Below, piece by piece: positions 146-44,016 of a stretch of 64,000 bases of DNA. Origin of the DNA: Bacteroidetes bacterium HGW-Bacteroidetes-10 (GTDB taxonomy: Bacteria > Bacteroidota > Bacteroidia > Bacteroidales > UBA932); assembly GCA_002842695.1 (NCBI GenBank), contig PHDT01000008.1, forward strand, positions 1 through 64,000, given 5' to 3'. The notes under the pieces were generated by a model. It ran no database searches. It was not told where the DNA came from and worked only from the letters and a program-made list of their open reading frames with translations. A program made the position numbers and the translations under genes. Every line of letters starts with the position of its first letter. The stretch's first letter is position 1.

Positions 146-178
146 TTTGCAGAGGGTAGAAAAAATAATATACATTTG
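146..178 (+). promoter_or_regulatory. Bacteroidetes-type promoter for the trp leader and trpB
   Basis: TTTG at 146-149 and TACATTTG at 171-178 are 21 bp apart. This fits the Bacteroidetes -33 (TTTG) and -7 (TAnnTTTG) elements. Transcription would begin near 184-186, about 12 nt before the leader peptide start, so the leader RNA would include the whole attenuator. Confidence 0.7.
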
Positions 179-196
179 CATTAGAAATTTACGAAG

Positions 197-277
197 ATGA
201 ATTATTCGCTTTTAATTACACAATCATGGTGGTGGCACAGGTCTGACAGATTTGTGAGCATATCCATGTGTGTATGA
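197..277 (+). CDS. Tryptophan leader peptide with three tandem Trp codons
   Basis: This 26-codon frame starts at ATG 197 and stops at TGA 275-277. It begins MNYSLLITQSWWWHRSD, with TGG codons at 227-229, 230-232 and 233-235. Three consecutive Trp codons in a short frame just downstream of a promoter, followed by a strong terminator and then a tryptophan synthase gene, is the classic arrangement of ribosome-mediated attenuation. A ribosome stalled at the Trp codons for lack of charged tRNA-Trp would leave the downstream RNA free to form an alternative structure. The gene is inferred from architecture; the peptide probably has no function beyond its translation. Confidence 0.82.
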   Translation: MNYSLLITQSWWWHRSDRFVSISMCV

Positions 278-314
278 TAAGGTAGTAAAAGGCTATTTTA
301 TTGACAAATATAAG

Positions 315-346
315 GGTCCGTTGCTCACGCAACGGACCTTTTTTTT
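315..346 (+). terminator. Trp attenuator: intrinsic terminator before trpB
   Basis: A perfect 10-bp stem (315-324 with 329-338, arms GGTCCGTTGC and GCAACGGACC) has a 4-nt loop and is followed by eight Ts at 339-346. It lies between the leader peptide and trpB, in the position expected of an attenuator. The segment GTGAGCA at 254-260, inside the leader peptide frame, is complementary to TGCTCAC at 322-328. That pairing would break the terminator and is a candidate antiterminator. Confidence 0.85.
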
Positions 347-388: not shown

Positions 389-1693
389 ATGAAACAGAAC
401 AGGAAAATCGTACTCTCAGAGAGTGAAATGCCAAAGCAGTGGTACAACATTACCGCAGACATGAAGAATCAGCCCCAGCCACTTCTCAATCCCGGAACAA
501 GGGAGCCTCTCAAGGCTGCCGAAATGGAAGGATTGTTCGCAAAGGAGCTGGTTGCTCAGGAATTCTCTTCTCAGCGATGGCATGATATTCCGGAGGAGGT
601 TCTTGAATTGTACAAGATTTACAGACCCACTCCTCTGGTGAGGGCATATGGTCTCGAGAGAGCGCTGGATACACCGGCAAAAATCTATTTTAAAAATGAG
701 AGCGTAAGCCCTGTTGGGTCTCACAAGCTTAATACTGCTATTCCTCAGGCCTACTACAACAAGGTACAGGGAATTACCAATATCACCACAGAGACCGGAG
801 CCGGTCAGTGGGGGTCTGCAATGAGCGTTGCCTGCCAGCATTTTGGCCTTGACCTGAATGTCTTCATGGTAAGACAGAGTTATGATGCAAAGCCATACAG
901 AAAGGTTGTAATCAAGAGCTATGGAGGGAAAGTTCATGCATCTCCTTCTGCACTTACTGAATACGGTCGCTCACTACTTGCAGGAGACCCGTCAAACAGG
1001 GGCAGTCTTGGAATTGCAATTTCTGAAGCCGTTGAAATGGCAGTGACAAATCCCGGAACAAAATACACTCTGGGCAGTGTGCTCGACCACGTACTCCTTC
1101 ACCAGACTATAATTGGACTTGAGGCCGAGAAACAGATGGAGATGGCAGGAGAGTTTCCTGACAAAATTATCGCATGTTTTGGAGGAGGTTCCAATTTTGC
1201 GGGTATATCTTTCCCATTTCTTCGCCACAAACTAACAGGTGATGGAAACTCAAAGGCTGCAGGACTTAAGCTTATTGCTGCCGAACCGGCTGCCTGCCCA
1301 AAGCTCTCCAGAGGCAAACTTGAATATGACTTTGGTGATACTGCAGGCATGACTCCGCTCATTCCAATGTATACCCTGGGACACGATTTTGCACCTGAAC
1401 AGATACACGCTGCAGGACTCAGATATCACGGAGGCGGACGTATTGTCAGCAGGCTCAAGGCAGATGGTTTTCTTGACAGCATTGCCGTGGAGCAGACTGA
1501 GGCTTTTGCTGCGGGATTGCTCTTTGCAAAAAGTGAGGGTATAATTCCGGCACCGGAGTCTACCCATGCAATTGCAGCAACAATCAGGGAGGCTCTTAAG
1601 GCTAAGGAATCCGGGAAGAGCGAGGTTATTCTGTTTAACCTCTCAGGTCACGGATTGCTTGATATGGCTGCATATGAAGAGTATCTGCCATAA
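389..1693 (+). CDS. trpB: Tryptophan synthase beta chain, TrpB2 type
   Basis: This PLP enzyme of 434 aa condenses indole with serine to give tryptophan. The PLP lysine lies in GSHKLN (Lys113). The phosphate-binding loop is GGGSN (265-269), and TETGAGQWG (134-142) is the beta-chain signature. The long N-terminus and the overall sequence match the TrpB2 branch rather than TrpB1, which partners TrpA. No trpA or other trp gene is adjacent. TrpB2 proteins often act without TrpA and may salvage free indole. The attenuator upstream indicates control by tryptophan supply, which supports a real role in Trp synthesis. No clear Shine-Dalgarno sequence is seen. Confidence 0.93.
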   Translation: MKQNRKIVLSESEMPKQWYNITADMKNQPQPLLNPGTREPLKAAEMEGLFAKELVAQEFSSQRWHDIPEEVLELYKIYRPTPLVRAYGLERALDTPAKIYFKNESVSPVGSHKLNTAIPQAYYNKVQGITNITTETGAGQWGSAMSVACQHFGLDLNVFMVRQSYDAKPYRKVVIKSYGGKVHASPSALTEYGRSLLAGDPSNRGSLGIAISEAVEMAVTNPGTKYTLGSVLDHVLLHQTIIGLEAEKQMEMAGEFPDKIIACFGGGSNFAGISFPFLRHKLTGDGNSKAAGLKLIAAEPAACPKLSRGKLEYDFGDTAGMTPLIPMYTLGHDFAPEQIHAAGLRYHGGGRIVSRLKADGFLDSIAVEQTEAFAAGLLFAKSEGIIPAPESTHAIAATIREALKAKESGKSEVILFNLSGHGLLDMAAYEEYLP

Positions 1694-41362: not shown

Positions 41363-43891
41363 CTAAAAAATGGCTAACCTCACACCTGCACTTGCATTAA
41401 TTCCAAAACCCCAGAACCCTCTGAAGCTGTTCATGGTGTGGTCGTACCCATCTTTTCCTCTTTCGATGTACTTGCTGTTTAGCATGTTGTTTACACTTCC
41501 AAAGAAAGTTGCCTCAAAACGGCCGAACTTTTCCATCCATGTTAAACCTGCATTTGCTACATGATAATCTGGCAATCTGAGGGAATTGCTCCTGTCGTCT
41601 GCGTTTTGTCTGCTTATTGGGTCAAAGTCTGCATACAGGCGGGAATTCCAGCGCCAGTCTGCATTCAGCCTTAATTGTCTCCACAATTTAATGTCTGCAA
41701 AGAGTCCCGCCTGAGTCTGCGGAGCGTCTCCCACTGCAAGGCCGTCGCTGTATACATTTATTTGTCCCATCTCAACTCCTGAATAGTTGTCGTAAATAAT
41801 TGCTGAGACATCGTTCTTCCACTTCCAGCTCCCGATTGATCCGTAAGCTCTCAGTTTCAGCCAGTGCCAGGGGGTAAATTCTGCATCGGCCTCAATACCA
41901 ATATGCAAAGCATCCAGCCCCTGCACCATGTATCTGTGTGCAATATTGTCAAACTGTTGTTTATAGGGGTCGGACATAATAGTTTTGTTCTTCCAGTATG
42001 CAGCATATGCTGTTGCTTCCACTGATCCCCTGTCAAAAATGAACCGGTAACCCAGCTCGCTGAGAATATTCTTCTCGTTCTTTACTCCTTTTGTTATTTC
42101 ATTGTTCCCGCCTGAGAAAAATACATCAGAATAGGGAAGGCGGCTGTAAATTGCAGCATTCAGATAGAGAGAGCTGTTGCGGCTTATTTTGCGCAGGGCG
42201 CCTCCCTTGATGCTGTAACCGGCGGCGGTTGCCACATCGCTGTGGTAATCGTTTATGTAGTTGTATTTGTCCCATCTCTGATTGGTGCTTCCCATTGCGG
42301 AGGCGCCCAGTCTCACTTCCCACTCCTCACTGCTGTAGTTTGCCATTGCATAGGCAGTCAGGTGGCTTATGATTTTGCCGTTATCTGTACGGATATGATC
42401 TCCAACTACTTTGTTTGTATTCCTGCCTGCAAGACCGGCCAGTGACTTGCCCTCATAATCTTCAAACCAGAAATCGCCTCCCAGAAGGTCTGTGATTAAC
42501 TCCTTCTCCCATGTAGAGTAAAACTGATAATGGAGCCCGGCTGTGTATGTAATTCCGTTATTCGCCTTATAAGTTGCATTGCTCTTGAATCCGGTCTGAG
42601 TGTGTCCGGCAAGGTAGTCGGTCAGGATATTGTACGAAGAGCCGTCGGTTCTGCGGTTTACTGCAATAGCAGTATCCCAGTCTATGTACCCGTCCTTTTG
42701 AAAATCAATCAGCCTTTTAGCATTTGACTCAGACCATCTGCCTCCGCCGTTTCCTACCGAAACATAGGCTGTGTTTGAGAGCTCAAAACCGTTACCGGAA
42801 TTGTAAAAATGATGAAGGGTAACGTAAGGTTTGTGGTAAAAATTCTCACTTAGGTTAAATGGTACTCTTTTAATTTCAGATGAGCCCTCAGAAACCGGCA
42901 TATTTCTGTAACCCCAGTTTTTGCTGTAGCCGAGTCCGTAAACATCAACCTCTGAGGCACTCAGCCTTGCGCTTCGCTGCTCATGCCTTTCCGGCGAACC
43001 CAGTGCTGTAAGAAGCAGCGAGTGGCGGTTGTTAATCCGTTTGCTGATGTTAACCATATACGCCCATGAGTTCACATCTGTCTGCTGAACATACCCGCTG
43101 CCAAAAGCATAAGAGGCCATGGCAGAAACAGCCCATCCGCCCTTTAGCTTTCCGCTGTTCATGCTGACAAAGCTTTTCCCCTGACCATAGCTGGTATAGA
43201 AGAGACCAGCAGATGCCGATGCCTTTGTCTGAGGAGTTGTTGTAATGATGTTGATAGTTCCGCCCACGGAGTTGTCTGAAAGCATTGAGCCCCCAATTCC
43301 TTTCTGCACCTGTATGGTGTGAGTTGCATCTGCAAGCCCCAGCCAGTTGTTCCAGAACATGTTTCCGGTAACGAGTCCCGAAACAGGAATCCCGTTAAGC
43401 ATTACAGAAATGTTCTCCTGTTTGAATCCCCGGATGTTTATCCTTGCATCTCCATAGCTGCCACTTTCGCTGGTTGCATAGATGCCGGGAATATCCCTTA
43501 CGAGCTCGGGATAGGTGCTCCCAATTGCACGCCTCTCAATTTGCTCCCTGTTAACGCTTTTAAGCCTAAGCGGGCTCCTCCTTTCGTTAAGCACAGATGC
43601 CGTAAGAACAATCTCCCTCAGGTTTGCCTGAAGAGTACTGTCCTGCCCGGAAACTGCATAAACAGTGTCAGGAGACAAAATCTCCGCATTGCCTGAAGAT
43701 GGCATTTCCAAAGGATTTTTGGCCTGAGAGTTTTCTGCTGCTGAATTAGCTTTTGCTGAACTGATTTCTGCTGACTCGGCTCGCGCCGGCTTTACAGCTG
43801 CTGCAGATACCTGAATTGACGCTCCGCCCAGGAGCAGAAGGGCAATGCCACCGGCAATGACCCTTGTGTAGAGTATTGTGTTGTGTTTCAT
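41363..43891 (-). CDS. TonB-dependent outer-membrane receptor under FMN riboswitch, probable flavin transporter
   Basis: An 842-aa receptor. A signal peptide (MKHNTILYTRVIAGGIALLL) precedes a low-complexity Ala/Ser/Glu region. The plug (about 110-230) has INIRGFKQENISVMLNGIPV and GSMLSDNSVGGTINIIT, and the remainder is a 22-strand barrel. Start: ATG 43891, although the frame is open for 138 bp upstream, because that stretch is the riboswitch. FMN riboswitch control implies that the gene is switched off when flavin is plentiful, so the ligand is probably riboflavin or FMN. That is an inference from regulation, not from receptor sequence. Confidence 0.9.
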   Translation of the reverse strand: MKHNTILYTRVIAGGIALLLLGGASIQVSAAAVKPARAESAEISSAKANSAAENSQAKNPLEMPSSGNAEILSPDTVYAVSGQDSTLQANLREIVLTASVLNERRSPLRLKSVNREQIERRAIGSTYPELVRDIPGIYATSESGSYGDARINIRGFKQENISVMLNGIPVSGLVTGNMFWNNWLGLADATHTIQVQKGIGGSMLSDNSVGGTINIITTTPQTKASASAGLFYTSYGQGKSFVSMNSGKLKGGWAVSAMASYAFGSGYVQQTDVNSWAYMVNISKRINNRHSLLLTALGSPERHEQRSARLSASEVDVYGLGYSKNWGYRNMPVSEGSSEIKRVPFNLSENFYHKPYVTLHHFYNSGNGFELSNTAYVSVGNGGGRWSESNAKRLIDFQKDGYIDWDTAIAVNRRTDGSSYNILTDYLAGHTQTGFKSNATYKANNGITYTAGLHYQFYSTWEKELITDLLGGDFWFEDYEGKSLAGLAGRNTNKVVGDHIRTDNGKIISHLTAYAMANYSSEEWEVRLGASAMGSTNQRWDKYNYINDYHSDVATAAGYSIKGGALRKISRNSSLYLNAAIYSRLPYSDVFFSGGNNEITKGVKNEKNILSELGYRFIFDRGSVEATAYAAYWKNKTIMSDPYKQQFDNIAHRYMVQGLDALHIGIEADAEFTPWHWLKLRAYGSIGSWKWKNDVSAIIYDNYSGVEMGQINVYSDGLAVGDAPQTQAGLFADIKLWRQLRLNADWRWNSRLYADFDPISRQNADDRSNSLRLPDYHVANAGLTWMEKFGRFEATFFGSVNNMLNSKYIERGKDGYDHTMNSFRGFWGFGINASAGVRLAIF

Positions 43892-43895
43892 ATTT

Positions 43896-44004
43896 TCTTC
43901 TTCCTTCCAGACTTTAACTGTCGGTACCGTAGTTACAACGGTTCTGCCATTTACGGCTCGCGGACTATACCGCCGATCGGGAATCACACCCTGCCCTGAA
44001 GATT
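43896..44004 (-). promoter_or_regulatory. FMN riboswitch (RFN element)
   Basis: On the minus strand the leader contains ATCTTCAGGGCAGGGTG, then ATTCCCGATCGGCGG, AGTCCGCGAGCC, and finally CCGACAGTTAAAGTCTGG with GGAAGGAAGAAGA. These are the conserved blocks of the RFN element in order, forming the six-helix FMN-binding fold. The 3' end lies 4 bp from the receptor ATG, and the last stretch is purine-rich, so translational control by hiding the ribosome binding site is likely. Confidence 0.95.
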
Positions 44005-44016
44005 TTTTAACGGCGG

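Follow-up and report, generated by a model that had tools for sequence, protein, structure and literature searches.

Why should a solitary tryptophan synthase beta-like gene in a Bacteroidales genome be preceded by a short reading frame with three consecutive Trp codons and an intrinsic terminator? Trp attenuators are textbook examples of regulation, and the arrangement before trpB2 resembles one. We examined it in a window of 64,000 nt whose first base is also base 1 of contig C19, so that the gene upstream is cut by the contig start. The source genome is a draft of 2.41 Mb in 42 contigs, with a completeness of 93.5%. Comparison with relatives makes it very probable that the element is a ribosome-mediated attenuator, responsive to the charging of tRNA-Trp, for the stand-alone TrpB2.

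Features of the trpB2 leader region (positions in the window)
Feature	Position	Strand	Description and basis
Likely promoter	146-178	+	TTTG 146-149 and TACATTTG 171-178; fit to Bacteroidetes-type consensus
Leader peptide ORF	197-277	+	ATG start, 26 codons, MNYSLLITQSWWWHRSDRFVSISMCV and stop; equivalents in relatives
Three tandem Trp codons, TGG TGG TGG (regulatory codons)	227-235	+	Read in sequence
1:2 hairpin	232-259	+	Strand 1 (232-243) with strand 2 (249-259); covariation in relatives
Strand 2, GTGAGCA	254-260	+	Antiterminator partner, 322-328
Intrinsic terminator hairpin, strands 3 and 4	315-338	+	Perfect 10-bp inverted repeat; covariation
T8 run closing the terminator	339-346	+	Read in sequence
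trpB2, stand-alone tryptophan synthase beta-like enzyme	389-1693	+	434 aa; NF009057 and TIGR01415 above cut-offs

The sequence-only reading had placed these elements correctly: its leader of 26 codons, Trp triplet, 10-bp terminator, T8 run and trpB2 agreed with the DNA base for base. The terminator arms, GGTCCGTTGC (315-324) and GCAACGGACC (329-338), enclose the loop TCAC (325-328), and the top of strand 3 together with the loop (322-328) doubles as the antiterminator strand. Bacteroidetes-type promoters follow the consensus TTTG-N~20-TAnnTTTG, and a likely promoter of this type lies at 146-178. In 46 of 68 leaders a TAnnTTTG motif stood no more than 60 nt ahead of the leader start, a raw count with no chance control. 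In the genome, TGGTGGTGGCRC had a single other copy, inside an OmpA-like gene (identity read by eye). The frame cut by the contig start leaves a tail at 10-141 on the + strand, whose residues resemble the end of PrmC; similar tails were seen by eye upstream of some relatives' leaders. The sole Rfam match above threshold within the 64-kb window was an FMN riboswitch at 43891-44007 (- strand, 105.7 bits).

We compared the upstream regions of related genes. A protein search of 299 family genomes gave a match at E<=0.001 in 218, the weak matches probably including TrpB1. Upstream regions came from the 30 best of these 218, from 80 of 588 named loci and from 80 further copies. There were 191 regions in all, 189 with at least 60 bases, and 158 were distinct after strict removal of duplicates. 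A leader followed by a terminator was found in 61 of the 158 (window and relatives), and in none of the 158 in each of five dinucleotide shuffles or in the reverse complements. When WWW was demanded, the count was 46/158 against 0 in both controls. Looser duplicate removal gave 68 of 171 regions against 0, 0, 1, 0 and 0 in the five shuffles and 0 in the reverse complements. This set of 68 leaders, which includes shifted copies of the same loci, consists of the 71 positive rows minus three that were rejected as false (L079, L109 and L150, none of them among the strict 61); the frame of one leader (L024) was re-set by motif. By record name, leaders outside the family belonged to Dysgonomonas (L060), Paludibacteraceae (L051, L052), Bacteroidaceae (L104) and Alistipes (L099).

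A leader and terminator before TrpB2 are not the product of chance. Within the family, 128 TrpB2 copies had at least 200 bases upstream (two of 130 were too short and were dropped), and by the rule used the element stood before 75 of them and was missing from 53. It preceded all 21 copies read in the window's genus, and its frequency varied in other genera (g21, 10/10; g17, 3/3; g4, 12/18; g22, 13/37; g15, 0/4). Given this uneven spread, the element is common in the family but far from universal. The sequence-only reading had proposed that tandem TGG codons and a terminator should be kept in related genomes, and they were, in the genus, in the family and in records named for other Bacteroidales families. 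A separate TrpB2 paralogue marked by the leader is unlikely; the TrpB2 tree needs 10 label changes, and copies with and without a leader are close sisters.

The alternative pairings were examined in an alignment of 23 relatives, all of them chosen because they have the leader. All nine bases of the Trp codons were invariant, as was the CACA after them except at one position, and TGTGAGC and GCTCAC were invariant or nearly so. The 1:2 hairpin, which takes in strand 2 and the last part of the Trp codons, was paired in 93.9% of cells, with 13 cells changed on both sides, and its covariation score was reached in 0 of 500 shuffles. The terminator scored 0.302 against 0.150 in shuffles, again with 0/500 reaching the observed value. 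Pairing of the antiterminator, 254-260 with 322-328, was possible in 96.3% of cells, and its covariation was no better than in shuffles among these close relatives. Because the helix hardly varies there, we turned to distant leaders.

When duplex energies were computed over the whole leader, only 30 of 68 leaders had a p of 10/200 or less, and for this reason a swap test was performed on 25 distinct representatives less than 65% alike. The segment at nt 5-42 after the last Trp codon was paired with the top of its own terminator or with those of other leaders. Strand 2-3 pairing with the own terminator had a mean of -14.10 kcal/mol, compared with -10.37 (sd 0.59) after swapping, and 0 of 20,000 permutations paired as well. 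A control segment directly before the terminator showed no effect (1602/20,000). The partners changed together, as in GTGAGC/GCTCAC, TTGTGGG/CCCACAA and TAAACAA/TTGTTTA. Taken singly, 11 of the 25 representatives reached p<0.05 for the antiterminator helix, and the window's own helix was not significant alone (p 0.168).

In folding predictions with strand 1 masked, at least five bases of strand 3 paired with upstream RNA in 68/68 leaders, and in 46-52 of 68 when the upstream RNA was shuffled. With strand 1 free, strand 3 still paired upstream in 43/68. The window RNA from 227 to 328 was predicted to fold as the antiterminator even with strand 1 free, and the 1:2 hairpin and terminator became the predicted fold only when strand 4 was out and the terminator complete. 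Such predictions agree with classical attenuation, where the outcome depends on the order in which the RNA is made. The locus has the parts of a Trp attenuator: a leader ORF with tandem Trp codons, an intrinsic terminator before the gene, a hairpin that sequesters strand 2 and, by covariation in distant leaders, an antiterminator mutually exclusive with the terminator. The antiterminator had not been named in the sequence-only reading, and its presence and covariation between distant leaders are comparative evidence for the attenuation proposed there.

A simpler reading is that the terminator merely ends the upstream gene, that the Trp-rich frame is incidental, and that TrpB2 is made by constant basal readthrough. 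Intergenic terminators are common, and the upstream frame on the same strand does end at 141. Yet the combination of leader and terminator was absent from all 158 shuffled regions five times over, the antiterminator pairing covaries, and a promoter-like TAnnTTTG stands close before the leader in the 46 of 68 cases counted above without a chance control. We regard this reading as highly improbable. The same low probability attaches to a TnaC-like leader. In TnaC it is the nascent peptide that detects free Trp within the ribosome, and a leader of this kind would make TrpB2 inducible by high Trp or indole. The leader does encode a Trp-containing peptide and the genome has a tryptophanase, but such a peptide would require conserved residues. 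Instead, the residues that follow the Trp codons are not conserved and even change frame between relatives (FVS vs ICE) while the nucleotides are kept; the constant feature is a close group of two or three Trp codons. That a T-box, a TRAP-like system or another ligand- or protein-binding leader governs the terminator seems to us extremely improbable. Terminators under such control look alike, but no Rfam family reached threshold over the leader, and conservation centres on the Trp codons and the three strands.

In the favored reading of ribosome-mediated attenuation, a ribosome short of charged tRNA-Trp would stall at codons 227-235 and cover strand 1 (232-243). Strand 2 (254-260) would then be left free to pair with strand 3 (322-328), the terminator at 315-338 would be blocked, and trpB2 would be transcribed. 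When Trp is plentiful, or when no ribosome is present, the leader would be finished or released. Strand 2 would then be covered or else base-paired to strand 1, so that the terminator could form and transcription would stop near 346. The spacing of the elements fits a stalled ribosome, and we infer from the comparative data that the switch operates in cells and depends on Trp. The likeness to E. coli trpL includes the tandem Trp codons and the 1:2, 2:3 and 3:4 hairpins. The E. coli leader, however, has two Trp codons instead of three and controls a full biosynthetic operon, and the stop codon in the window leader lies beyond strand 2, unlike that of trpL.

The regulated protein scored 680.7 bits with NF009057 (cut-off 366) and 606.8 bits with TIGR01415 (cut-off 518.85). 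Its best solved relatives were 6hul, 4qys and 6hte, the latter two carrying the name tryptophan synthase beta chain 2. Of the remaining pathway, trpA, IGPS, TrpB1 and TrpE were searched for. In the 93.5% complete draft there were zero matches to trpA and zero to IGPS. TrpB1 was not among the genome's four PLP fold II matches, and the three besides TrpB2 were threonine synthase-like (below cut-offs), ACC-deaminase-related and a cysteate synthase. The genome's sole chorismate-binding enzyme was far below the TrpE cut-offs and scored as aminodeoxychorismate synthase (PabB; NF005486, 396.6 bits, cut-off 275). A tryptophanase was present (NF053783, 888 bits, cut-off 750). A second tryptophanase-like gene (L241, C17:26100-27197 of the same genome) was above the subfamily cut-off and below the equivalog cut-offs of TnaA and tyrosine phenol-lyase.

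Judged by this gene content, the bacterium is probably unable to make Trp from chorismate. It appears able to release indole from Trp, and with TrpB2 it could rebuild Trp from indole and serine. Because trpA, IGPS, TrpB1 and TrpE were not found and tryptophanase is present, the role of TrpB2, which joins indole to serine, is probably indole salvage. The earlier suggestion that TrpB2 really serves Trp supply gains strength from the genes that were not found, with the amendment that since the upstream pathway was not found, the supply is most likely salvage of indole. There is precedent for this role. E. coli delta-trpA had a growth benefit near wild type when given a TrpB2 of Bacteroides thetaiotaomicron, an effect that the authors attribute to conversion of secreted indole (PMC11535334). 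Indole salvage by the stand-alone TrpB2 of Thermococcus kodakarensis is cited in PMC11085991. Both that enzyme and the B. thetaiotaomicron BT_RS23500 product are of the same kind and form Trp from indole, but the accessible portions of the two papers mention no Trp attenuator.

The distribution of the element was compared with that of trpA, which was over cut-off in 42 of the 299 family genomes. Forty genomes were scored as having trpA; the genes of G149 and G280, both genomes without a leader, were fragmentary and were counted as absent. Among sampled genomes, TrpB2 had a leader and terminator in 69 of 101 without trpA and in 6 of the 27 in which trpA was present (Fisher p 2.1e-5; Mantel-Haenszel odds ratio 11.5, stratified by genus). 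Before 20 hand-picked g14 and g22 genomes were added, the counts were 55/84 and 5/24. A tree of 57 TrpB2 proteins, whose rows were chosen by the author and not at random, gave nine independent pairs that differed in trpA. The leader differed in the opposite sense in a mean of 5.7 pairs, in the same sense in none, and not at all in 3.3. The sign test had a median p of 0.031 with trpA as the first trait and of 0.0625 when the leader was taken first. In draft genomes trpA may escape detection, and the link between the TrpB2 attenuator and the absence of trpA is suggestive, not settled.

Trp operons of relatives were also considered. Eight of 12 operon regions fetched had a Trp leader, one of them in the window's genus; of the other four, one was cut by the contig end and three had no leader found. 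In G064, of the window's genus, and in G071 the operon and TrpB2 were each attenuated, which makes these genomes exceptions to a simple either-or. Their operon loci (L229, G064:C7; L228, G071:C125) are full trp operons with trpE-sized first ORFs and Trp leaders of their own, the ORFs being named by length and by the position of trpA. Within genus g14, G134 has a TrpB2 leader that aligned with the trp-operon leaders of G144 (score 63) and G014 (59), where shuffled maxima were 24.5 and 25, respectively. Six other operon leaders scored 34 to 40 with it, also above their own shuffles, and the TrpB2 leader of the Bacteroidaceae record (L104) scored 58. Because these leaders score as well, an old shared module appears equally possible as a recent move of the leader.

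These observations might be joined by supposing that in this family the attenuator sits on whichever unit forms the genome's Trp. Where the operon is present it would be on the operon, with TrpB2 usually free. Where the operon has been lost it would be on TrpB2, in at least one lineage with a recognisable relative of the operon leader. We hold this only tentatively and consider it somewhat doubtful. If true, a bacterium that catabolises Trp and makes indole would switch on indole salvage only when Trp runs out. The comparison offers sequence evidence that a stand-alone TrpB2 works in Trp supply in Bacteroidales seemingly unable to make Trp, and such bacteria may use indole as a shared good. 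An attenuator on TrpB2 when trpA is absent is a pattern that can be tested directly.

The sequence-only reading called attenuation before a solitary TrpB2 in a Bacteroidales genome less familiar. Trp leaders as such are not unfamiliar in Bacteroidetes: the Bacteroid-trp RNA (Rfam RF01692), which has an entry in the table of Weinberg et al. 2010 (PMC2864571), is already one. Like the window element, it is a Bacteroidetes leader RNA with Trp codons within a long hairpin before Trp genes. However, it stands before trp operons whereas the window element precedes trpB2, and the latter scored 23 bits against a gathering threshold of 49. An Rfam scan at the window leader gave sub-threshold matches only, and a stricter-filter search of the source genome gave no RF01692 match at E<=0.001. 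Of 20 TrpB2 loci scanned, a single leader, in Dysgonomonas sp. 520 (L060), narrowly attained the threshold (49.2 vs 49). In the order, RF01692 matched 26 of 295 genomes, 15 over threshold. A trpB1-like gene lay at 20 of the 26 loci, full-length in 19 and cut in one. Of the remaining six, five had an ORF of 452-469 aa downstream, assigned to trpE by its length only, and one ran off the contig.

Among other attenuators, those of Actinobacteria are alike in having a UGG-codon leader and a terminator, and a candidate was described before trpB2A in Corynebacterium diphtheriae (PMC1262725). That paper names the C. diphtheriae trpB2 as sharing an operon with trpA, and so it is not stand-alone. Among the open-access matches listed, with most subscription journals outside, none described a stand-alone TrpB2 preceded by a Trp attenuator. 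Already known are the Trp attenuation mechanism in kind and Bacteroidetes Trp leaders before trp operons (RF01692). New are the salvage target, the failure of the Rfam model to recognise the element, and the link with trpA absence; an RNA element that this model misses is thereby added.

We built a covariance model (R1) of the element from the 23 relatives, with pairs in the 1:2 hairpin only and the terminator as sequence alone. One copy was found in each of 43 of the 299 family genomes, including 22 of 25 in the genus; relatives used to train the model are bound to match. Of the three genus genomes missed, one had no TrpB2 match, one had a TrpB2 cut at the contig start (G209), and one had a weaker match whose place was unlisted (G204). 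Weak matches elsewhere stood before the trp operon of G071 and before a TrpB1-sized gene in G154. The G154 locus (L226, G154:C65:20400-22600) has a WWW leader before an ORF of 395 aa, probably TrpB1 by length; this ORF was the genome's only weak match, and trpA had no match there. The layout resembles that at trpB2, with the other enzyme as its target. A TrpB2 with a similar leader in G086 (L225, C17:38200-40500) lies in a frame of 511 aa; its match is split at residue 282/283, the two parts being separated by some 74 additional residues. The TrpB2 match in G257 (L224) was likewise longer than the query.
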